NCBI RefSeq assembly: GCF_019443285.1
Contig: NZ_CP080327.1
Span: 1,484,001-1,548,000, forward strand
Direction of reading: 5' to 3'
Length of the DNA stretch: 64,000 nt
Source: Aquisediminimonas profunda
GTDB taxonomy: Bacteria > Pseudomonadota > Alphaproteobacteria > Sphingomonadales > Sphingomonadaceae
Shown: one piece after another, positions 31,984-46,082 of the stretch
How the letters are laid out: each line of letters opens with the position of its first letter
Numbering within the stretch: position 1 is the stretch's first letter
Program-made: the position numbers and the translations under genes
Notes under the pieces: generated by a model
Database searches by the model: none
What the model saw: only the letters and a program-made list of their open reading frames with translations
Told to the model about the DNA's origin: nothing

Positions 31984-32517
31984 TTAGTAGATGCGCTTCA
32001 CCTTGATGCCCGGCTGCTTACGTACGGACATCTTGTAGGTGCCAAGTGCAGCGCGCTTGATGACAACCGGCATGCCCGGCTTGGGAGAAAGCGCAAGTGG
32101 CGAAAAGTCCATCTGCTGCCAGGTTGAGCCTTCAGCAATGGTGATAATCCAGCCTTCGCCATTGTAGCTGGCAGACTTTACGGTCGATTCCAGTTCGGCA
32201 ATCTGGTTTTCCTTATTGTCGTCGTCATCACCGCCACCGAACAGGCCCAGATTGGGCAGTGGCAATCCAAACAGGGTCCGCCTGGTTTTCTGGACTTGTT
32301 GCTTGTCCACCATATAGACTTCATTCTTTGCAGCCGCCTCATCAAGGCGGGCAACCTCGGCATCGTAACAGGCCAAGCGTTGCGTGGCGTCCGTTATGGC
32401 ACGGCAATCAACCACCTTCTGGAGGAATTCGGAACGCGGCATCGGCTTCTTTGCATCCTTGGCGAATGCTGGCGTAGCCAGCATAGCCAAACCAGCGCAC
32501 AGATATGCGGCCTTCAT
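31984..32517 (-). CDS. Hypothetical secreted protein with RLACYD motif
   Basis: 177 residues, function unknown. Signal peptide MKAAYLCAGLAMLATPAFA, cleavage near residue 19. The mature N-terminus has VVDCRAITDATQRLACYDAE, a two-cysteine pattern also seen at the N-terminus of TagO/VasI-type periplasmic proteins. A DDDD acidic patch is followed by a helix (KENQIAELESTVKSAS) and a C-terminal beta region with TIAEGSTWQQMDF and KPGIKVKRIY. It probably faces the periplasm. Convergent with the transglutaminase gene (3 bp between) and divergent from the TonB receptor. Confidence 0.72.
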   Translation of the reverse strand: MKAAYLCAGLAMLATPAFAKDAKKPMPRSEFLQKVVDCRAITDATQRLACYDAEVARLDEAAAKNEVYMVDKQQVQKTRRTLFGLPLPNLGLFGGGDDDDNKENQIAELESTVKSASYNGEGWIITIAEGSTWQQMDFSPLALSPKPGMPVVIKRAALGTYKMSVRKQPGIKVKRIY

Positions 32518-32694
32518 CATGCTCCCCTTCTACTGTTACGGTGCATTCCCTGATTGCCACCAAAATCAAAGTTAGCCAAGCGCTGCCCGAGTGTTGCAAA
32601 TTGGTGACAGTGCAGGCGTAACATTCTGTCGCGACCGTGAAACACGTTTACATCGGCCGTCCCCTTAGGCAAACCCCGGCGCAAGTCGGCATAT

Positions 32695-32789: not shown

Positions 32790-35700
32790 ATGAAAACTCA
32801 GAAATTCTATAGTCGTGCGCGCCTTAGCGCTGGCGTTGCATCGGCTGTTATCGGCTTTGCTATGCTCGCGACTCCCGCCTTCGCGCAGGAAGCTGCCAAC
32901 GAAGAAGATAGCGGTGACATCATCGTAACGGGTTCGCGCATTCCGCAGCCGAACCTTGAAGGCATCAGCCCGGTGACTTCTGTCAACGCACAGGACATCA
33001 AGCTCTCGGGTACGGTGAAGGCAGAAGACCTTCTGAACTCGCTGCCTCAGGTTTTCGCGGCGCAGTCCTCGACGCTGTCGAACGGCGCAACGGGTACCGC
33101 CACGGTCGACCTTCGCGGTCTTGGCTCGTCACGTACGCTGGTCCTGATCAACGGTCGTCGCTTGATGACGGGTGATCCAAACAGCACAAGCTCGGCAGCC
33201 GACCTTAACTTCATCCCTACACAGCTAGTCAAGCGCGTTGATGTTCTGACCGGTGGCGCTTCGGCAACCTACGGCGCTGACGCCGTCGCCGGCGTTGTCA
33301 ACTTCATCATGGATACCGATTTCGAAGGTTTCCGAGTCGATGCGAACTACGGCTTCTATCAGCACAACAACCGCAACAAGATCACTCCGCCGCTCCTCAA
33401 TGCGCGCGCTGCAGCGGGCTTCAGCGGCTATGGCTACCCGACCGGCAGCGTTGCCGACGGCGGCACATTCGATGGCAGCGTCTCGTTCGGCGGCAAGTTC
33501 GGTGATGACCGCGGTCACTTCACGGCCTATGTTGGTTACCGCAAGGCAAAGCCCGTGCTTCAGTCGAATCGTGACTACAGCGCCTGCACGGTGCAGGTAA
33601 ATGACCGCCTCGCGGGCGGTTTTACTCCCAACTCGCCGCTTCAGTGTGGTGGTTCGGCTACTTCGGCAACGGGTACCGCCTTCTATTTCGTGACCAGCAC
33701 GACATCATCCACGGTTGGTGCACTCGGGCCGGGAACGCTAACACAAGGCACGCTCAACCGTTACAACTTCGCTCCGACCAACTATTTCCAGCGTCCGGAC
33801 GAACGTTATACCGCGGGTGCCTTTGTTGATTATGAAATCAGCGATGCTGTGAAGCCTTACATGGAATTCATGTTCATGGACGATCGCACGCTTGCGCAGA
33901 TCGCGCCGTCGGGTGATTTCGGTAACACGTTGACGGTCAACTGCGACAACCCGCTCATGTCGGCCTCGCAGCTCAGCCAGATTTGTAATCCTGGTAACTT
34001 GATCAACACTTTCATCGGGAATTTTCCGGTGGCAACAAATGCAGGGTACAACCCGCTTGGCAATATACTTGACCCGAATGATCCCGCATTTGTCCCACCA
34101 ATCGCTTTCCCCAACTCGGTACCCGGGGCTGCGAATGGGACATACAACAAGGCGTTCTTTCAGTTGCTTCGCCGCAACGTCGAAGGTGGCCCGCGGATCA
34201 ACGACCTTCAGCACACCGCGTTCCGCACCGTAATCGGAACCAAGGGTGACCTCGGTAAGGGCTGGGCTTATGACGCCTATTACCAATATGGCCGAACCAA
34301 CTATTCGCAGGTCTACAGAAACGAGTTCTCGGTGGCGCGTTTGACCCGGGCACTTGATGTTGTTGACGATCCGCGCGTTGCTGGCATTCAGGCGGTTTGT
34401 CGTTCGGCACTCGACGGCACTGATCCAAATTGCGTTCCTTACGACATCTTCGGTGGAACGCCTTCGGCCGCTTCGCTCGCCTATCTCAATGCGACTGGCT
34501 TCCTGAAGGGGCAGACTTCGCAGCAGGTCCTGAGTGGCAGCTTGACCGGCGATCTGGGCGAGTATGGCTTCAAGACGCCTTGGTCGGACGATGGTGTCGC
34601 TCTTGCACTGGGTGTCGAGTATCGCAAGGACTCTCTTGAACTGAACGCTGACAACGCCTTCCAGACCGGCGATCTAACCGGTCAGGGTGCGCCGACGCTT
34701 GATGTTGCCGGCAACTACAAGGTCAAGGAAGTCCTTGGTGAAATCGAAGTGCCAATCGTGCGCGACAGTTTCATCAAGAACCTGACCTTCAATGGCGGCA
34801 TCCGTCACTCAAGCTACAAACTCTCGAGCGGCCGGTCGATCAGCACCGACACATACAAGTTGGCGCTTGATTTCTCACCGGTGTCGGACATCCGCTTCCG
34901 TGGAACCTACAACCGCGCTGTTCGCGTTCCGAACATCCAGGAACTCTTTGCACCGCAGTTTGTCGGCCTCGACGGTTCGACCGATCCTTGCGCTGGCACG
35001 CCAATTACGGCAGCCCAAGTTGGTTGTCTGGCACAGGGCCTTTCACTGGGCCAAGGTGTGACCGCCAACCCGGCAGCCCAGTATAATGGCCTGCTTGGCG
35101 GCAACCCGAACCTGCTGCCCGAAATTGCCACGACGAAGACTCTCGGTGCTGTGTTCACGCCCCGGTTCATTCCTGGCTTCTCGATGACGCTCGACTGGTT
35201 CGACATCAAGATCAAGAAGGCGATCCAGGGATATGGTGCTGATGCCATCCTGACAGCTTGCGGTTCGGGCAATCTCACGGCTTGCGGCCTGATCAATCGC
35301 GATCCTGCCGGTTCGCTGTGGCTGACGTCGAACGGCTATGTGCAAGATCTGCAGACCAACGTCGGCAGCTTCAGCACGCGCGGGCTTGAAATTAACGGAA
35401 ATTATTCCCGCGAAATCGGCAGCGCTGGAACCGTCTCGCTCAGCCTCATTGGTACTCTGCTCGACACCTACAAGGTCGACAACGGACTGACGGAGATTTA
35501 CGACTGCGCTGGCTACTTCGGCCCGACTTGCGGCACTCCGGCTCCGAAGTGGAGGCACAAGGCTCGTGTTTCGTTCAATGCTGCAAACGGTCTGGGCATG
35601 TCGCTCCAGTGGCGTTACTTCGGTTCGGTTGATGCCGAATACAAGAACCCGAGCCAGACGCTGAACGGAAACGTTTACGACTACAACTCGTCTATTGCGG

Positions 35701-35927
35701 CCCAGAGCTATTTCGATCTGGCCCTGACCGCAAAGTTGGGTGACCGGTTCCGCTTCCAGCTTGGTGTGAACAATTTGCTCGATCGCCAGCCGCCAGTTGT
35801 CCACTCGGGCAGCGGCAACTTCGGCCAGAGCAACTGCGCCAGCACGGTCTGCAACGGGAACTCCTATCCCGGCACTTATGACTCGCTGGGTCGTTACATC
35901 TACTCGGGTATCACGCTGGACTTCTAA
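32790..35927 (+). CDS. TonB-dependent outer-membrane receptor
   Basis: 1045 residues. Signal peptide MKTQKFYSRARLSAGVASAV followed by cleavage after AFA near residue 32; a TonB-box-like DIIVTG at about residue 46. The plug domain shows EDLLNSLPQVF, GLGSSRTLVLINGRR, VDVLTGGASATYGADAVAGV and VVNFI. The barrel ends with GVNNLLDRQPP and the C-terminal SGITLDF, with the terminal Phe required for BAM assembly. The start at 32790 is chosen because it begins the signal peptide. It imports an unknown ligand. Codon choice looks biased as in highly expressed genes. It is followed by a strong terminator and then three TPR enzymes. Confidence 0.94.
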   Translation: MKTQKFYSRARLSAGVASAVIGFAMLATPAFAQEAANEEDSGDIIVTGSRIPQPNLEGISPVTSVNAQDIKLSGTVKAEDLLNSLPQVFAAQSSTLSNGATGTATVDLRGLGSSRTLVLINGRRLMTGDPNSTSSAADLNFIPTQLVKRVDVLTGGASATYGADAVAGVVNFIMDTDFEGFRVDANYGFYQHNNRNKITPPLLNARAAAGFSGYGYPTGSVADGGTFDGSVSFGGKFGDDRGHFTAYVGYRKAKPVLQSNRDYSACTVQVNDRLAGGFTPNSPLQCGGSATSATGTAFYFVTSTTSSTVGALGPGTLTQGTLNRYNFAPTNYFQRPDERYTAGAFVDYEISDAVKPYMEFMFMDDRTLAQIAPSGDFGNTLTVNCDNPLMSASQLSQICNPGNLINTFIGNFPVATNAGYNPLGNILDPNDPAFVPPIAFPNSVPGAANGTYNKAFFQLLRRNVEGGPRINDLQHTAFRTVIGTKGDLGKGWAYDAYYQYGRTNYSQVYRNEFSVARLTRALDVVDDPRVAGIQAVCRSALDGTDPNCVPYDIFGGTPSAASLAYLNATGFLKGQTSQQVLSGSLTGDLGEYGFKTPWSDDGVALALGVEYRKDSLELNADNAFQTGDLTGQGAPTLDVAGNYKVKEVLGEIEVPIVRDSFIKNLTFNGGIRHSSYKLSSGRSISTDTYKLALDFSPVSDIRFRGTYNRAVRVPNIQELFAPQFVGLDGSTDPCAGTPITAAQVGCLAQGLSLGQGVTANPAAQYNGLLGGNPNLLPEIATTKTLGAVFTPRFIPGFSMTLDWFDIKIKKAIQGYGADAILTACGSGNLTACGLINRDPAGSLWLTSNGYVQDLQTNVGSFSTRGLEINGNYSREIGSAGTVSLSLIGTLLDTYKVDNGLTEIYDCAGYFGPTCGTPAPKWRHKARVSFNAANGLGMSLQWRYFGSVDAEYKNPSQTLNGNVYDYNSSIAAQSYFDLALTAKLGDRFRFQLGVNNLLDRQPPVVHSGSGNFGQSNCASTVCNGNSYPGTYDSLGRYIYSGITLDF

Positions 35928-35952
35928 TCCGGCCTGACACCGTCTAAATGCT

Positions 35953-35990
35953 GGCGGCGGTCCCCATCCCGGGGCCGCCGCCAAATTTTT
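35953..35990 (+). terminator. Strong rho-independent terminator after the TonB receptor
   Basis: GGCGGCGGTCCCC (35953-35965) pairs with GGGGCCGCCGCC (35971-35982) with one bulged T, followed by AAATTTTT (35983-35990). It begins 26 bp after the receptor stop and ends 46 bp before the sulfotransferase GTG, so transcription of the downstream enzymes depends on read-through or a separate promoter. Confidence 0.88.
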
Positions 35991-36036
35991 GTTCAAAGCG
36001 CGCCGATTGGCGGTGCGCAACCGAGGGAATGCAGGG

Positions 36037-38028
36037 GTGTCGAATTCGGAAGATGCAGTCCGCCAAATTGCCGCACTCGCCCGCGCGGGCCAACTTAATG
36101 CGGCGGCGATACAGGTCATTGATGCCCTTGCCCGGAATCCGGGGGACCCGGTTCTCTCTGCGCTTGGCGGAGCGGTGGAATTTCACCGCGGTCAATTCAA
36201 GCGGGCTATTCCCTATCTTGAAGCGGCATTGCAGCATAAGCCGAATGACCTGACCATTCGCATCAACCTCGCCGAGTCCCATTTTCACGAAGGCGACAAT
36301 GCGGCTTCGCTCCGGTTGTGCGAGGAGGCAATTGCCCTCGCCGACCCAAGCCTTCGGCTCGCCAGACTCGGCGCGCATCTGGCGCAAGAGCTGGAGGACT
36401 TTCCGCTCGCGGTCCGCCTGTATCGGCATCTCGTCAAGCAGGACGCCAAGGATTGGTCGCTGTGGAACAACCTTGGCAATGCGCTGGGCTTTGCGGGTGA
36501 TCATGATGGAGCAGTTGAGGCACTGCAGAAGGCAATCGCGCTCGCTCCCGACTCCCAGCCGATCCGCATCAATCTTGGCAATGCCCTGATTGACGCCGGG
36601 CGGGGTGACGACGCTGAGGCGGTTCTCACCCAAGCCGGCAAGGATTTCTCTGATGACCCGGCACCGTTCCTCTCGCTTTTCAACCTTTACCGTCTGGTAG
36701 GTCGAGAGGATGATGCCTATGCCGCAATCGTTGAGGCTGCACGACGAGCGCCAGATGATGCCTCAATCCAGTCCGATCATGGGCAGGAGGCGGCACGTCG
36801 CAACCTCTATGACGAAGCTGAGGCTGCTTTCGAAGCTGCAGTGCGGCTCGACCCCAAATTGGGGCCGCCTTATGTCGGCTTGGCTTCGGTCTATGAACGG
36901 ATGAATCGCGAATTGGAGCTTGAGCCTCTTCGCGTCCGTGCCGAGGCGGCGGGAACCGACGCGCAATCGATGTCTTACATCGATGCATTGCGCTTCAAGC
37001 GGGCCGAGGCTTTTGACGATGCTTTTGCAGCCCTTGAGGCCGCTGGCGATGTCATTGTTCCGGGTCGAAAACATCATTTGCGGGGGATCATGCTTGACCG
37101 GTTGGGCAAGTACGATGATGCTTTTGAAGCCTTTACCTCGATGAATGAGCATTGGCAGGCTGATCCGTCGATGCCAGCAGAACGCGCCCGGCAATATCGT
37201 GAAATGATCGTCTCGTCGACTGATGTGCTGACGCCTGAGTGGCTTCAGAACTGGACTCCGGCGTTGCCACTCAAGGATCGCTCAACGCCGATATTCATTG
37301 TCGGATTTCCCCGATCTGGAACGACACTGCTGGATACCATGCTTATGGCGGACCCTCGAGTTCGGGTGCTTGAGGAAGAGCCGTTTCTCGTGCAGGCCGA
37401 GCAGGAACTGGGAGGCGTTGAAGCACTGGCGGTGGCAACCGAAGACCAGATCCGCGTTGCGCGGGAAGGTTATTTCGAGCGAGCAGCATCAGTTTCCAAG
37501 CTTGAGGCGGATTCGATCATTGTCGACAAGCATCCGATGCATCTCAACAAGGTGCCGGTCGCCCTCAGGCTCTTTCCCGATGCGCGCTTTGTCCTTGCAA
37601 TGCGGCATCCGTGCGACGTGCTGCTGAGTTGCTACATCACCAATTTCCGCATCAATTCGGCCATGGCCAATTTCCTTGATCTCAACGATGCTGCGGCACT
37701 TTATGACCTGACCTTCACCAATTGGGAAAAGGCCCGCGGCCTGTTTGATATGCCCGTGGCAACAATCGTTTATGAAAGGCTGGTCGAGGACACGCAGGGC
37801 CAACTGGAGCCGGTGTTCGACTGGCTTGGCCTCCAATGGCCCGGCAAGGCGTTCGACCATACCAAGGCTGCGCGTGCACGCGGAACGGTTGCGACCGCAA
37901 GCTATGCGCAGGTGACCGAGCCGATCTACAGCCGCGCCAAGGGGCGGTGGACCAAGTATCGCCGCCATCTTGAACGGATCCACCCCGTTCTCGCGCCGTG
38001 GATCGAACGTTATGGCTATGACTTCTGA
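36037..38028 (+). CDS. TPR-repeat sulfotransferase
   Basis: 663 residues if started at GTG 36037 (MSNSEDAVRQIAALARAGQL), with GAGGG upstream. A TTG at 35989 is in frame but lies in the terminator T-tract. Residues 1-360 are TPR repeats (for example LWNNLGNALGFAGDHDGAVE and IRINLGNALIDAGRGDDAEA). The sulfotransferase domain has the PAPS 5'-phosphosulfate loop FIVGFPRSGTTLLDTM near residue 420 and the 3'-phosphate motif RHPCDVLLSCYI near 520. No signal peptide: cytosolic. The family includes tyrosylprotein-type and other sulfotransferases. It overlaps the next gene by 11 bp. Confidence 0.9.
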   Translation: MSNSEDAVRQIAALARAGQLNAAAIQVIDALARNPGDPVLSALGGAVEFHRGQFKRAIPYLEAALQHKPNDLTIRINLAESHFHEGDNAASLRLCEEAIALADPSLRLARLGAHLAQELEDFPLAVRLYRHLVKQDAKDWSLWNNLGNALGFAGDHDGAVEALQKAIALAPDSQPIRINLGNALIDAGRGDDAEAVLTQAGKDFSDDPAPFLSLFNLYRLVGREDDAYAAIVEAARRAPDDASIQSDHGQEAARRNLYDEAEAAFEAAVRLDPKLGPPYVGLASVYERMNRELELEPLRVRAEAAGTDAQSMSYIDALRFKRAEAFDDAFAALEAAGDVIVPGRKHHLRGIMLDRLGKYDDAFEAFTSMNEHWQADPSMPAERARQYREMIVSSTDVLTPEWLQNWTPALPLKDRSTPIFIVGFPRSGTTLLDTMLMADPRVRVLEEEPFLVQAEQELGGVEALAVATEDQIRVAREGYFERAASVSKLEADSIIVDKHPMHLNKVPVALRLFPDARFVLAMRHPCDVLLSCYITNFRINSAMANFLDLNDAAALYDLTFTNWEKARGLFDMPVATIVYERLVEDTQGQLEPVFDWLGLQWPGKAFDHTKAARARGTVATASYAQVTEPIYSRAKGRWTKYRRHLERIHPVLAPWIERYGYDF

Positions 38029-39172
38029 CGCGCAGGAACGCGAGCGGCATGCCGATGCCCTTGCAGCTGCCGGCGATCTGGCCGGCGCGCGTCAAGTTCT
38101 GGAGGGGATCGTCGCGACGGAACCCAGTGCCGGGCGCTGGTTGAAACTTGGTGCCTTGTGCAGGGCTGCTGGCGATCTCAAGACGGCGCTGAAGGCGGTT
38201 GAACGCTCGCTCTCATTGGCGCCCCTTGATTTCATGGCTCTGATGAGCCGGGCCGCGATCCTTGAGCGCTTGGGTCGAGCGGAGGCCGCTGAGGCCTATA
38301 GCAATGCACTGGCCCAGCGCCCCCCGGAAGTCGAAGGCCAGCTCTCACGCATGGTTGCTCACGCCGAGCAGGTGAGTGCAGCCTATGTTGCGCAGCGCGA
38401 ATCCACGATGAAGGCTGCCCAGGCCACGGCGCTTGCCGCAGCGGATGAGGAAGAGGCGATCCGGATCAATCGCTTCCGGGACAATGCCCTGCGCCGCACG
38501 CGGGTATGGCATTCCGAACCGACGCATTTCCATTTTCCCGGCCTGATCGAGCGAGAGTTTCATGATCGATCGGCCCATGGCTGGCTCGAAGCGCTCGAAG
38601 GGGCTTTTCCGGATATCCTGTCCGAGTTTCAGACGGTCGTTTCCGCCGAGCGGGCCGAACTCGTTCCCTATGTGCAATATGCCGAGCATGAGCCGCTCGA
38701 CCAATGGCGCGACCTCAATCATTCCCGCGACTGGACGGCTATCCATCTGTGGCAGAACGGGCGGCGCATCGAAGCCAATGCGCGACATTGTCCAAGGACA
38801 ATGGCCTTGCTCGAAACCTTTCCTCAGCCGCGGATTGCAGGTTGCTCGCCTAATGCGATGTTCTCGCTTCTGGCACCGGGCGCGATCATTCCGCCGCATG
38901 TCGGAGTGAACAACACGAGGCTTGTCTGCCACCTTCCTTTGGTGGTTCCGCAAGGGTGCTGGTTCCGCGTTGGGGCGGAGACGCGATTTTGGGAAGCGGG
39001 CAAGGCGTTTGTCTTTGACGATACGATCGAGCACGAGGCTGCCAATCCGAGCAGCGAACTGCGCGTCGTTTTCATCATCGACATTTGGCACCCCGGCCTG
39101 AGCCCGGTTGAACGGGAAGCTGTGCGGCTCTTGCTCGAGGCTGACGCTGGCGACAGCACGCAGGGCCTGTGA
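38018..39172 (+). CDS. TPR protein with aspartyl/asparaginyl beta-hydroxylase domain
   Basis: 384 residues (ATG 38018; ATG 38012 also possible), overlapping the sulfotransferase stop. Residues 1-110 contain about three TPR-like helical pairs. The C-terminal half is an AspH-type Fe(II)/2-oxoglutarate oxygenase: His294 in PPHVGVNNTRLVCHL, with Gly in place of the usual Asp ligand as in animal AspH, and His339 in DTIEHEA; Arg in the VVFIIDIWHP-adjacent strand should bind 2-oxoglutarate. Such enzymes hydroxylate Asp/Asn side chains in proteins or peptides. It ends with a 4-bp overlap with the next gene. Confidence 0.9.
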   Translation: MTSDAQERERHADALAAAGDLAGARQVLEGIVATEPSAGRWLKLGALCRAAGDLKTALKAVERSLSLAPLDFMALMSRAAILERLGRAEAAEAYSNALAQRPPEVEGQLSRMVAHAEQVSAAYVAQRESTMKAAQATALAAADEEEAIRINRFRDNALRRTRVWHSEPTHFHFPGLIEREFHDRSAHGWLEALEGAFPDILSEFQTVVSAERAELVPYVQYAEHEPLDQWRDLNHSRDWTAIHLWQNGRRIEANARHCPRTMALLETFPQPRIAGCSPNAMFSLLAPGAIIPPHVGVNNTRLVCHLPLVVPQGCWFRVGAETRFWEAGKAFVFDDTIEHEAANPSSELRVVFIIDIWHPGLSPVEREAVRLLLEADAGDSTQGL

Positions 39173-40692
39173 CGATCGAGAGCCTGTTGAGCGCGGCGCG
39201 TGCCGATACTGGGAATGCTGCCGCCCTTGAAGCTCTTGCAAGCCATGCCCTTGCCCATCAGCAGGAACATCAGGCGCTTGGAGTTGTCGAGGAGGGGGCG
39301 AAGCGCCACAAGAGCAACGCCCGACTGTGGCAGTGGCTGGCTCTGCTTCAGCGTGCGGCAGATGACCGGGTTTCTGCCCTCGATTCTTTTGCGCGGGCAG
39401 CGGCCCTCGCGCCGCTAGATGCAAGCATAGCGAAAGGGCTGGCGCAGACTCGACTTGAGGCAGGTCTGCCTGCAGTCGATGCCTTTGCCAAAGCCAGACA
39501 ACTAGCACCAAATGACGGGGATATTGTCCTTGGCGTCACTGCGGCCCTTTTTTCCGAAGGTCAGGCAGAAACCGCGATATCCATCCTCGCCGGTAATGTT
39601 GGGGCCAACCCGTTATGGCTTTTCGGACATCGCGATCTGGTCCAGCTCCGCTGGATGATGGGTGAGGGACAAGCGGCCTTTGCTTCGCTGCGAAGTGCGA
39701 TCTCCACCAATCCCGAAAGTGAAGCACTTTGGGCGCAACTCGTTCACGCGTTGATGCAGGCCGGTCTCAATGATGACGCGCTTTCAGTCATCACGGAAGG
39801 TCGCAAGACTATGGGAGATACTCCCCGTTTTGCCGTAAACGAAGCCGTCATTCGTTCGGATGCTGGTGATCGGGTCGGTGCAGCACATCTTTTCGAGGGC
39901 TTTTCGGATGGAGATGATGCGACTGTCGCAGTCCGGATTATCCGTCACCATCTGCGTTATGAAGAAGTCGATGCGGCCGCAAAGCTGGTTCACCGCTGGA
40001 TCGGTCGGCCAGGCGAAGCGCTGGTTTGGCCCTATGCTTCGCTCTGCTGGCGATTGCTCGGCGATGCGCGTGCGGACTGGCTTGAAGGGGAGGCAGCCTT
40101 GGTCCGCGTCTTTGACATTGCGGACAAATTGCCCCCACTTGAGCATCTTGCTGATCTGCTCCGAAGGCTGCATGTCGCGCGCAGCCAACATCTCGATCAG
40201 TCGGTGCGGGGAGGCACTCAGACTGATGGAGCCCTCTTTGCCCGGATAGAACCGGAAATCAGGCATCTGCGCGCTGCCATTGCCGTGGCTGTTGCCGAAT
40301 ATCTGGCTGCACTTCCCGAACGCGACGCCGGCCACCCGACTATTGGTCCGCGCCGTGATCAGCCTGTCCGATTTGCCGGGTCATGGTCTGTCCGGCTGGC
40401 TGGCAAGGGCTTTCACGCGAATCATGTTCATCCGGCTGGCTGGATCAGTTCTGCGCTGTATGTTGCGCTGCCGGAACATCGACCAGAAGATGGTCCAAAT
40501 GCTGGCTGGCTGACGCTCGGTTCTCCTGAGGCTGGTTTGGGCCTTCATATGCCTCCAACACGCCTGATAGAACCAAAGCCGGGCAGGCTGGTGATGTTTC
40601 CCTCAACAATGTGGCACGGCACCTTGCCCTTTGAAGCAGGTGAGCGTCTGACGATTGCCTTCGATGTTGCTCCTCCGATGGCAGAGGTTTGA
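39169..40692 (+). CDS. TPR protein with C-terminal 2OG-Fe(II) oxygenase domain
   Basis: 507 residues from GTG 39169, whose GTGA overlaps the previous TGA. Residues 1-300 are TPR or TPR-like repeats (ARLWQWLALLQRAADDRVSA, ALWAQLVHALMQAGLNDDAL). The C-terminal domain matches the putative 2OG-Fe(II) oxygenase family (PF13759/TIGR02466 type): KGFHANHVHPAGWISSALYV with His419 and His421, then MFPSTMWHGTLPF with His483 and Arg493 in GERLTIAFDV. No signal peptide. Its substrate is unknown; the shared TPR layout suggests the same client as the two upstream enzymes. Confidence 0.87.
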   Translation: MTIESLLSAARADTGNAAALEALASHALAHQQEHQALGVVEEGAKRHKSNARLWQWLALLQRAADDRVSALDSFARAAALAPLDASIAKGLAQTRLEAGLPAVDAFAKARQLAPNDGDIVLGVTAALFSEGQAETAISILAGNVGANPLWLFGHRDLVQLRWMMGEGQAAFASLRSAISTNPESEALWAQLVHALMQAGLNDDALSVITEGRKTMGDTPRFAVNEAVIRSDAGDRVGAAHLFEGFSDGDDATVAVRIIRHHLRYEEVDAAAKLVHRWIGRPGEALVWPYASLCWRLLGDARADWLEGEAALVRVFDIADKLPPLEHLADLLRRLHVARSQHLDQSVRGGTQTDGALFARIEPEIRHLRAAIAVAVAEYLAALPERDAGHPTIGPRRDQPVRFAGSWSVRLAGKGFHANHVHPAGWISSALYVALPEHRPEDGPNAGWLTLGSPEAGLGLHMPPTRLIEPKPGRLVMFPSTMWHGTLPFEAGERLTIAFDVAPPMAEV

Positions 40693-43961: not shown

Positions 43962-46082
43962 CTATTCGCCGCCGCTTCCGATCAGCTTGTCTTCGTTGGC
44001 GCGCTTGATGACGTATTGGCGAATATTCTCGATCTGCTCCGGAGAATACTGGCCAGCCCATGAGACCATGCCATTGTCCTTCAACAGGCCATCATGAACG
44101 ATCAGCTGCCAGAGTTTGGCATTCCCAAGTGCCGCTGAGTGACGGACATCAGGATTGAGGCTGCCGGCCACTGCGGCGTTCCCGTGACACACACTGCAGC
44201 TGTTGCCATAATGGCTTGAACCGTCGGTGACTTGCTCTGGCGTTCCGGTAAACGGCGGCGGATCGAGGACACGCTTGCTGTATGGTGGTGGCGGGGGCAG
44301 GGTTTTGGCGCCGCCGATCTTGAAGACCAGAAGTCGACTGATATTCGGTGCCATGCGCGATTTGCTTACGAGCATCCCCCCTGAGACATCCCAGACGCCT
44401 CCCCAGCCGACCAGGATCGCGACATATTGCACACCCTTGACCGAATAGGTCATGGGAGCCGCTATGACGCCGGATTGGGTGGGGAAGGTCCAAAGTTGCT
44501 TGCCAGTGTCAGCGGCATAGGCGCGAAATTCGCCTCCAGCCGTTCCCTGAAAGACGAGGTTTCCAGCAGTTGCCAGCGTGCCGCCGTTTGTCGGACCGGG
44601 ATAGTTGACCGTCCAGCGGGCTTTGCCAGCGACAGGATCCCAAGCGACAAGTGACCCATTCGATGCGGCTGCGGTCGCGGCCCGAATTGCCTTGTCTGCA
44701 GGGACTTCAAGGCCACCAACGTCCATGCCAAGCTGGAAGCCGACGGGGCCAGGCTTCCAATCCTTTGCGGCTGCCTTGTAGACCTGCACTGTCTCATTGG
44801 CCGGAATATAGACCAGACCTGTTTTCGGGCTGTATGACATTGGCGTCCAGCTATGCGCGCCTACTGCACCAGGCATACCGACCCACGGCTTGCCCGTGAT
44901 TTCATATCGCGCCTCCGGATTGACGATCGGCTTGCCTGACACGGGGTCGAGACCGGATGCCCAGTTGATCTTGGCAAAGGGCTTGCCCGAGATGAATTTT
45001 CCTGTCGCAGCATCAAGCGTATAGAAAAATCCGTTCTTTGGTGCGTGCAGGATCACGTGTTGAGGTTTTCCGTTCACCGGTATGTCGGCCACCATGATCT
45101 GCTGGTTGGAATCGAAATCCCAGCGATCTTCCGGCGTTTCCTGGAAATGCCAGACGTATTCGCCGGTGTCGGGCTTCACCGCGACAATTGATGCCGTGTA
45201 AAGACTGTCACCTGCAGCAGACCCGCGCGCGGCGGGATTCCATGGCTCTGCATTTGCGGTGCCGAAATAGACGAGATCGGTTTTGGGATCATAGGTGATG
45301 GAGTCCCAGACCGTCCCGCCACCGCCATTCTTCCAGGCATCAGGAGCCCATGTCTTGGATGCCGCTTCCAGATGCTTGCCTTCAAACGGCTTGGATGGGT
45401 CGCCGGGGACCGTGTAGAAGCGCCATGCTTCCTTGCCTGTCTCAGCATCGTAGGCGGCCAGATATCCGCGTGTGATATATTCTGCGCCAGCGCTGCCAAT
45501 CAGGACCTTGCCTTTGACAATGCGCGGGGCGCCAGTGATCGCCATATGCGACCCCTCTGGGATGGTCAGCTTGCTCCAGATGACCTTGCCATCGTCTGCG
45601 TTGAGCGCGATCAGTCGACCGTCGAGCGTGGCGACATAAACTTTGCCCTGATAAACAGCGACACCCCGATTGACCGCGTCGCAGCAGACATCGACCAATT
45701 TTGATCGCGGCACCTGCGGGTCATAAGACCAAAGTGGCTTTCCGGTGGCCGCGTCATAGGCTTTCACCATGCTCCATGCGGTAGTTATGTACATGACACC
45801 ATCGACGACGATCGGTGTTGCCTCCTGTCCGCGCGCCGTATCGAGGTCGGACGACCATTCGAGGCCTAGCTGACCAACATTCGAGTCATTCACAGCGGTG
45901 AGCGGAGAAAAGCGCTGCTCGTCATAGGTCCTGCCATAAGTCATCCAGTTCGCGCCGTCATCTGCGGCAGCGAGCAACCGTGCATCATCGACCTTGGCAC
46001 CCTTGCCTCCATTGTGGCCGCAGCTTGAAAGGCTTGCTGCACCAAGGATCAGGGCTCCAGCCAAGACATAGCGCTTGTACAT
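43962..46082 (-). CDS. PQQ-dependent quinohaemoprotein alcohol dehydrogenase (type II-like)
   Basis: 706 residues. An N-terminal lipobox (ALILGAASLSSCG, Cys21) predicts a lipoprotein rather than a soluble periplasmic enzyme. The eight-bladed PQQ propeller includes the vicinal Cys-Cys in LVDVCCDAVNRG (about residue 130) and Trp-docking repeats such as DAATGKPLWSYD. A C-terminal cytochrome c domain carries CSVCHG (about residue 626). Thus electrons pass from alcohol via PQQ to haem. No pqq biosynthesis genes or partner cytochrome are in view. A substrate (alcohol or aldehyde) cannot be named. Confidence 0.9.
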   Translation of the reverse strand: MYKRYVLAGALILGAASLSSCGHNGGKGAKVDDARLLAAADDGANWMTYGRTYDEQRFSPLTAVNDSNVGQLGLEWSSDLDTARGQEATPIVVDGVMYITTAWSMVKAYDAATGKPLWSYDPQVPRSKLVDVCCDAVNRGVAVYQGKVYVATLDGRLIALNADDGKVIWSKLTIPEGSHMAITGAPRIVKGKVLIGSAGAEYITRGYLAAYDAETGKEAWRFYTVPGDPSKPFEGKHLEAASKTWAPDAWKNGGGGTVWDSITYDPKTDLVYFGTANAEPWNPAARGSAAGDSLYTASIVAVKPDTGEYVWHFQETPEDRWDFDSNQQIMVADIPVNGKPQHVILHAPKNGFFYTLDAATGKFISGKPFAKINWASGLDPVSGKPIVNPEARYEITGKPWVGMPGAVGAHSWTPMSYSPKTGLVYIPANETVQVYKAAAKDWKPGPVGFQLGMDVGGLEVPADKAIRAATAAASNGSLVAWDPVAGKARWTVNYPGPTNGGTLATAGNLVFQGTAGGEFRAYAADTGKQLWTFPTQSGVIAAPMTYSVKGVQYVAILVGWGGVWDVSGGMLVSKSRMAPNISRLLVFKIGGAKTLPPPPPYSKRVLDPPPFTGTPEQVTDGSSHYGNSCSVCHGNAAVAGSLNPDVRHSAALGNAKLWQLIVHDGLLKDNGMVSWAGQYSPEQIENIRQYVIKRANEDKLIGSGGE

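Follow-up and report, generated by a model that had tools for sequence, protein, structure and literature searches.

A TonB-dependent receptor subfamily of Sphingomonadales travels with a variable cassette of TPR-fused sulfotransferase and oxygenase genes

Nutrients, siderophores, antibiotics, phages and bacteriocins all use TonB-dependent receptors (TBDRs) as points of entry. The association of TBDR genes with genes for modifying enzymes is a theme already known. In the pairs Fiu-YbiX, PiuA-PiuC and CciT-CciO, the TBDR gene is in an operon with, or adjoins, a gene for an Fe/2-oxoglutarate (2OG) oxygenase, whose role is described as unsettled (PMC12004943). Some methanobactin operons likewise combine a TBDR, MbnT, with a sulfotransferase, MbnS, as set out in part of another report (PMC3621798). 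Here we describe a variant of this theme at positions 32790-40692 of a stretch of 64,000 nucleotides (the window) from the genome of Aquisediminimonas profunda (contig NZ_CP080327.1), where a TBDR gene is followed by genes for three enzymes, each joining a tetratricopeptide repeat (TPR) array to a different catalytic domain: a 3'-phosphoadenosine 5'-phosphosulfate (PAPS) sulfotransferase (ST), an AspH-type hydroxylase and a further 2OG oxygenase (OG). The four genes are as follows.

32790-35927, + strand: TBDR, 1045 aa; Pfam Plug 1.3e-22, barrel 1.2e-25; signal peptide; 14 cysteines
36037-38028, + strand: TPR-sulfotransferase (ST); PF13469 (Sulfotransfer_3) 2.5e-32, with TPRs; PAPS motifs intact
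38012-39172, + strand: TPR-AspH, an aspartyl/asparaginyl beta-hydroxylase-like 2OG oxygenase; PF05118 (Asp_Arg_Hydrox) 1.7e-43, with TPR_14; ATG start
39169-40692, + strand: TPR-2OG oxygenase (OG); PF13759 (2OG-FeII_Oxy_5) 1.1e-19, with TPRs; GTG start

This gene order, first read from the letters of the window in a first-pass annotation, is borne out by Pfam domains and coordinates, and in all three enzymes the TPRs are N-terminal to the catalytic domain. The overlap that the annotation reported holds for the enzyme genes (17 bases between ST and AspH, 4 bases between AspH and OG) and does not extend to the receptor: the ST frame is open from 35989, its probable GTG start at 36037 is preceded by GAGGGA (by inspection), and with that start a gap of about 109 bases separates it from the TBDR gene. 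Only the receptor, among the four proteins, has a strongly hydrophobic N-terminus. As the annotation had stated, no signal peptide is evident in ST, AspH or OG, judged by hydropathy alone with no dedicated predictor. The 14 cysteines of the receptor form seven neighbouring pairs; one of these, 1016/1021 near the C-terminus, is present in 97% of the close receptor subfamily and in 5% of the next clade.

We searched 297 genomes of the order Sphingomonadales for AspH, of which 111 had some match at 1e-30. Besides the window's own protein, 16 matches were close orthologues (48-66% identity, at least 362 bits; the next match scored 273 bits). They span six genera, the window's own included, which places the co-occurrence beyond a single genus. 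We examined the neighbourhoods of all 16 and of 24 weaker matches. A receptor of the window's subfamily was within 8 kb of 12 of the 16 close orthologues; two others were at a contig end with ST and OG, and in the remaining two AspH stood alone, in genomes (G121 and G236) that both carry a TBDR-OG-ST set elsewhere. The 12 genomes with both a close AspH and a receptor scoring above 1050 bits, drawn from 17 and 27, compare with 1.5 expected (hypergeometric probability 1e-10, ignoring phylogeny). Among named genomes of bacteria and archaea, a scan identified 128 AspH relatives, and we analysed the best 80. All 80 were labelled Sphingomonadales or were metagenome-assembled genomes labelled at a higher rank, and the many named genera of these bacteria of soil and water include Sphingomonas, Sphingopyxis, Novosphingobium, Rhizorhabdus, Sphingobium, Sphingosinicella, Erythrobacter and Porphyrobacter, among others. 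The receptor subfamily was found within 8 kb of AspH in 66 of the 80 named loci: 51 with ST and OG, eight with ST, four with OG and three with neither, under looser enzyme thresholds than those of the 6-kb counts given below. Ten of the other 14 were at a contig end (seven showing ST or OG, three neither), and four were uncut and had no cassette partner. Some cassette members are broken in the records (receptor, AspH and OG in pieces at L180, the receptor at L114, OG at L139, and a TGA in the G279 frame); these were left unmended in the counts.

Searching the same number of genomes (297) with the receptor gave at least 36 places in 35 genomes, a lower bound because scoring was confined to the top two first-look candidates in each genome. 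We examined 20 of the 36, chosen for having no linked AspH orthologue. Among them, each of the 16 receptors above 1050 bits is immediately followed by a TPR enzyme gene in the same orientation (ST in 16, OG in 13); of the four that scored 694-785 bits, two had OG on the opposite strand and two had nothing. Across all loci, a cassette enzyme lay within 6 kb of 71 of 71 receptors above 1050 bits, a sample enriched by the AspH searches and comprising 67 clusters at 90% identity. The same was true of 20 of 22 receptors at 650-1050 bits, and of three of 15 TBDRs at 350-650 bits, with none at the other 12 (same strict thresholds; loci fetched by AspH or by receptor). Nine loci (L112, L127, L176, L160, L140, L138, L141, L187 and L148) were dropped from the 6-kb counts and from the small-protein counts below: eight duplicate records already among the survey loci, and L187 is a near copy on a separate short contig, while other near pairs were kept. 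The enzymes occur in orders that include ST-AspH-OG, AspH-OG-ST, OG-ST-AspH, ST-OG, OG-ST and ST alone. We conclude that the enzyme set and order vary while the receptor stays constant, and that the genes form an operon-like cassette that travels with one receptor subfamily and keeps its catalytic residues in the aligned sets. The cassette is real, conserved and broader than a single locus. The first-pass annotation had taken the gene overlap as a sign of a common client; overlap shows an operon and no more, and we regard the linkage as beyond chance because it is conserved across loci, not because the genes overlap. At two loci, L112 and L120, a second AspH gene lies a few kb from the cassette.

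The window's genome contains further examples of a simpler form. PF13469 gave eight matches in seven frames, of which four long frames carry TPRs. Three of these four TPR-sulfotransferases directly follow a TBDR, against only 41 Plug matches in the genome; the two outside the window are listed here.

L013:1951-6787: TBDR with ST directly after it; PF13469 about 1e-53
L014:2418-6979: TBDR with ST directly after it; PF13469 about 1e-53

The TBDRs of L013 and L014 are alike each other and unlike the window receptor. Because three of the four TPR-sulfotransferases of this genome directly follow TBDRs, we view the pairing as a repeated arrangement, of which the window cassette is the richest form. 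The genome also has a second AspH gene (L003:9621-10763), which has no TPR match at 1e-5 and lies between an Oxidored_molyb gene and mutS, with no TBDR in view.

The first-pass annotation described the catalytic motifs as intact. This extends to the relatives: the expected residues are invariant in the 29 ST, 17 AspH and 33 OG proteins aligned, and the loss in most homologues that the annotation had named as refuting was not observed. The ST alignment comprised the window's protein and 28 of 78 candidates. Invariant in 29/29 were the PAPS-binding residues of the 5'-phosphosulfate-binding (5'-PSB) motif PRSGTT and of the 3'-phosphate-binding (3'-PB) motif R...S, a Glu pair after the first motif, and E463 and K514 (DK-x-P motif), both of which align with TPST2. 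We take the catalytic Glu to follow the 5'-PSB and the Lys to be that of the (N/D)K-x-P motif. The best solved relatives of the ST catalytic domain are the tyrosylprotein sulfotransferases (TPSTs) TPST2 and TPST1 (6e-12 to 1e-8); the TPST2 alignment spans nearly the whole domain, and among PDB matches TPSTs lead, well ahead of the polyketide-type sulfotransferases listed. An AlphaFold2 model of ST (predicted local distance difference test score (pLDDT) 91.8) had O-GlcNAc transferase (OGT) and SPINDLY as its best Foldseek matches. TPR proteins fill the list, and no TPST was among the 50 matches listed for the whole model; the TPST match therefore rests on sequence. The ST TPR array has invariant Asn residues at 93, 161, 195 and 306, some at 34-residue spacings. 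In OGT, an Asn ladder holds peptide backbones.

For AspH, the nearest solved relative of the catalytic domain is human AspH (3.5e-35). Residues S285, H296, H307, H341 and R351 (alignment A2 numbering) are invariant in 17/17 and align with human S668, H679, H690, H725 and R735. According to passages of a structural account, H679 and H725 of the human enzyme are Fe ligands, S668, H690 and R735 are 2OG residues, and R688 contacts both substrate and the 2OG C1 carboxylate (PMC12816917). The AspH model (pLDDT 87.8) has the same TPR-then-oxygenase order as human AspH over 377 columns (Foldseek), and its catalytic domain alone matches 5apa at 3.0 A. Against NCBIfam equivalogs, OlsC scored best (78.4 of 450 bits) and LpxO reached 50.1 of 500, both below cut-off. 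A Pfam search that covered the linked receptor, not the rest of the proteome, found no match to an EGF-like domain. In the OG alignment (the window's protein and 32 of 82 candidates), six candidate catalytic residues, namely three His at 416-421, H483, R493 and D499, are invariant in 33/33; the two solved relatives listed for this domain are both uncharacterised. The best catalytic-domain match of OG is PF13759, and that of AspH is PF05118; PF13640, to which PiuC and YbiX belong, reached just 21.6 of 27 bits in OG.

We favour, tentatively and at somewhat less than an even chance, a reading in which the three TPR enzymes modify protein in the cytosol and are dedicated to a single TBDR subfamily, with the newly made receptor or a partner of it as the client. 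The first-pass annotation had suggested a peptide or protein as client. We favour a protein for two reasons: the closest relatives of known structure are a tyrosylprotein sulfotransferase for ST and human AspH for AspH, and the partner that stays constant is the TBDR. The TPR arrays would hold an extended polypeptide in the manner of the OGT superhelix, and that polypeptide would be either the receptor, not yet folded and bound for the Sec machinery, or a protein working together with the receptor. ST would add sulfate, most probably to Tyr given its homology to TPSTs, AspH would beta-hydroxylate Asp or Asn, and OG would hydroxylate a further residue. The modified receptor might then fold in the outer membrane with its loops closed by disulfides. 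As a matter of speculation, the modifications might adjust how the receptor recognizes its ligand, or mask the receptor from phages and bacteriocins. We think it unlikely that this amounts to a bacterial equivalent of the protein modification of the secretory pathway, in which interchangeable, TPR-guided enzymes of the cytosol would sulfate Tyr and hydroxylate Asp/Asn of outer-membrane receptors ahead of their export, each receptor family having its own set of modifications.

Several findings weigh against the receptor as client. The annotation had suggested comparing receptors for shared Tyr and Asp/Asn patterns, and no such site proved to track the enzymes: receptors with and without each enzyme differ at these residues no more than at others. 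We compared receptor columns with and without AspH (55/16), ST (75/18) and OG (76/17), without phylogenetic correction. For AspH, the best Asp/Asn column was N715 (0.91 vs 0.44), and the reverse control gave one column with a difference of 0.46. Five of 34 Tyr columns were commoner with ST, the best being Y452 (0.89 vs 0.28), with none in the reverse control; Leu (8/39), Gln (6/18), Asn (4/28) and other residues track ST just as Tyr does. Y452 is Tyr in 68 of 71 members of the first receptor clade, including three without ST in view, and in the second clade in two of seven with ST against two of 15 without. Inside that second clade, just one of 27 Tyr columns differs with ST. We therefore read Y452 as a clade difference. 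A residue code in the receptor for the enzymes is rejected, as columns of other residues track ST about as often and most of the difference lies between clades.

The enzymes themselves add to these doubts. The position of human R688 is Val in 13 and Leu in four of the 17 AspH orthologues, and the relatives of the AspH family include lipid hydroxylases (OlsC). Superposed as a whole, the AspH model and human AspH reach a template modelling (TM) score of 0.48 with a root-mean-square deviation of about 15 A; in the model, either the domains are set differently from those of human AspH or the hinge is unsure. The 'shared TPR modules' of the first-pass annotation were too strong a description, since the conserved Asn columns belong to the ST array and are found in neither the AspH nor the OG TPR region. 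Linkage to a receptor would also be equally expected if the enzymes acted on its ligand.

Outside Sphingomonadales the linkage is sparser. A TPR-ST search that covered 199 genomes of the phylum located 14 places beyond the order. We examined every one, and a TBDR was close by in just four. AspH searches of 289 and 348 genomes gave 33 such places, namely L197, which has ST, AspH, OG and a TBDR together, L200, which has AspH, a TBDR and ST (both also among the 14 ST places), and 31 more that were examined. A TBDR lay within 8 kb in eight of the 31 (L204, L207, L212, L216, L217, L221, L231 and L232, with L231 counted though just under the 150-bit cut), and six of these eight also had ST or OG. 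The overall figure is just 10 of 33, obtained with a TBDR model that derives from receptors of Sphingomonadales and could overlook remote ones (L206 and L214 scored no more than 29-30 bits). In itself, then, AspH is not a receptor gene, whether it carries TPRs or not. One genome of the phylum has four sulfotransferase genes in a row (L191:1-15000), three with TPR matches, and no TBDR was detected there.

Within the order, the loci are not independent. Across 89 cassette loci, the neighbours found most often are a 189-aa protein that matches no Pfam family (43), the exonuclease VII large subunit (38), ClpB (33), PurD (32), a further TBDR (29) and an M23 peptidase (24). Exonuclease VII or PurD is present in 40 of the 89 loci and neither in 49, and because one or the other adjoins so many cassettes we place these at one inherited chromosomal site. 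The linkage counts thus partly reflect common descent, although the receptors themselves are diverse, with 67 clusters at 90% identity among the 71 closest. The 189-aa-type family is mostly divergent from the receptor and about 175 bp away. At 31984-32520 on the minus strand, the window encodes a 178-aa protein with a signal-like start, divergent from the receptor, which we put in this family by inspection only. On the other side of the cassette, at 43962-46082 on the minus strand, is the gene for a pyrroloquinoline quinone (PQQ)-dependent alcohol dehydrogenase that belongs to the methanol/ethanol family and ends in a cytochrome c domain.

Next after a receptor client ranks the possibility, in our view rather unlikely, that the enzymes sulfate and hydroxylate in the cytosol a peptide or other compound that the cell makes or takes up, and that the TBDR imports it. 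Methanobactin operons offer a precedent, as they join a precursor peptide, usually a TBDR and sometimes a sulfotransferase (in part of PMC3621798), and ligand metabolism has been proposed for CciT-CciO, Fiu-YbiX and PiuA-PiuC in passages of PMC12004943. In addition, a table of a Pontixanthobacter pan-genome study gives neighbouring cluster numbers to lasso B2, to sulfotransferases and to an aspartyl beta-hydroxylase (PMC10040529). Against this, none of the six commonest neighbour families of the 89 cassette loci is an exporter, a synthetase or a peptide-tailoring gene, lasso B2 (PF13471) is absent from the window's genome, none of the B2 places listed for the order (all but one each in G174 and G121) is near any of the 16 order-survey AspH orthologues, and a large or extended protein is the sort of client that long TPR arrays fit. 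Tailoring of a lasso peptide by the cassette, for which PF13471 was searched in the window's genome and the 297 genomes of the order, is not supported. We consider it very doubtful, more so than any other explanation weighed here, that the enzymes act on lipids or other small molecules of the envelope, by OlsC/LpxO-like hydroxylation or sulfolipid formation, and have only regulation in common with the receptor. The best NCBIfam match of AspH is indeed OlsC, at 78 of the 450 bits needed, and the substrate arginine of human AspH is missing. Against such a role stand the TPR arrays on all three enzymes, an ST nearer to TPSTs than to the polyketide-type sulfotransferases listed and an AspH nearest to human AspH; nor does it predict consistent pairing with one receptor subfamily.

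A different protein client emerged from the short open reading frames, which the first-pass annotation had suggested comparing. We clustered small frames near 69 loci in search of a precursor peptide. The widest cluster consists of frames with a signal-like start, most of them 80-130 aa long. Alignment of 21 members shows no variation at the C, G, C and W that define a C...GS...C...W core, and six members scanned had no Pfam or NCBIfam match below 0.01. This small two-cysteine family has 89 matches in 78 loci, examples of which are listed here.

L049:10567-10821: small two-cysteine protein
L120:9316-9561: small two-cysteine protein
L161:12510-12755: small two-cysteine protein
L242:9079-9366: small two-cysteine protein, window's own genome

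It is quite improbable, we judge, that this secreted protein, whose gene closes many of the cassettes, is the client and that the TBDR exports, binds or senses it. Its presence in 62 of 99 cassette loci, compared with 16 of 99 others (duplicates included; the 16 include truncated cassettes and loci of AspH relatives), points that way. So does its position: with duplicate loci dropped, 76 of 80 copies have a TPR enzyme gene no more than 600 bp away, while about 11% of the non-enzyme bases of the loci lie within 700 bp; it also adjoins AspH paralogues without a close cassette receptor. The window's cassette lacks the protein; the genome's single copy is 1.37 Mb away, beside glyA, nrdR and a SpoU methylase. 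Moreover, four of 23 cassette-bearing genomes (G121, G236, G048 and G116) have no match, three of five genomes without cassette genes do have one, and Tyr is present in just 35 of 89 sequences, which suits ST poorly. Another small-frame cluster, found upstream in 18 loci, presumably resembles a DUF2093-type protein.

If the receptor is the client, as we tentatively prefer, then a chemistry of surface receptors has been missed in a large bacterial group, and eukaryotic-type TPST and AspH reactions gain a cytosolic bacterial setting. We know of no TBDR that is sulfated or hydroxylated, and none turned up among the papers listed in searches of the open-access PMC literature. The same listings, from a library that mostly leaves subscription papers outside, showed no description of TPR-sulfotransferase/AspH/2OG cassettes beside TBDRs.

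The cassette differs from each of the systems it resembles. Pairs of the Fiu-YbiX kind have one oxygenase, to our knowledge without a TPR array; the cassette has two different oxygenases plus a sulfotransferase, each fused to TPRs, and a receptor of another subfamily. In methanobactin operons, MbnS is assigned to PF00685, whereas the window ST is a PF13469, TPST-like protein with a TPR array; the precursor MbnA, MbnB and MbnC appeared neither in the top six neighbour families nor in the broadest small-frame clusters, with no model search made for MbnB or MbnC. Human AspH and TPST1/2 are the nearest solved relatives of the AspH and ST catalytic domains, and human AspH shares the TPR-then-oxygenase order. 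The human proteins act in the lumen of the secretory pathway, and TPSTs have, as far as we know, no TPR array; the window enzymes have no evident signal peptide, and R688 is not kept in AspH. Finally, OGT and SPINDLY likewise join a long N-terminal TPR superhelix to a C-terminal transferase, and conserved Asn residues mark the TPR array of OGT as they do that of ST; the difference is that the catalytic domain of ST is a PAPS sulfotransferase, not a glycosyltransferase.

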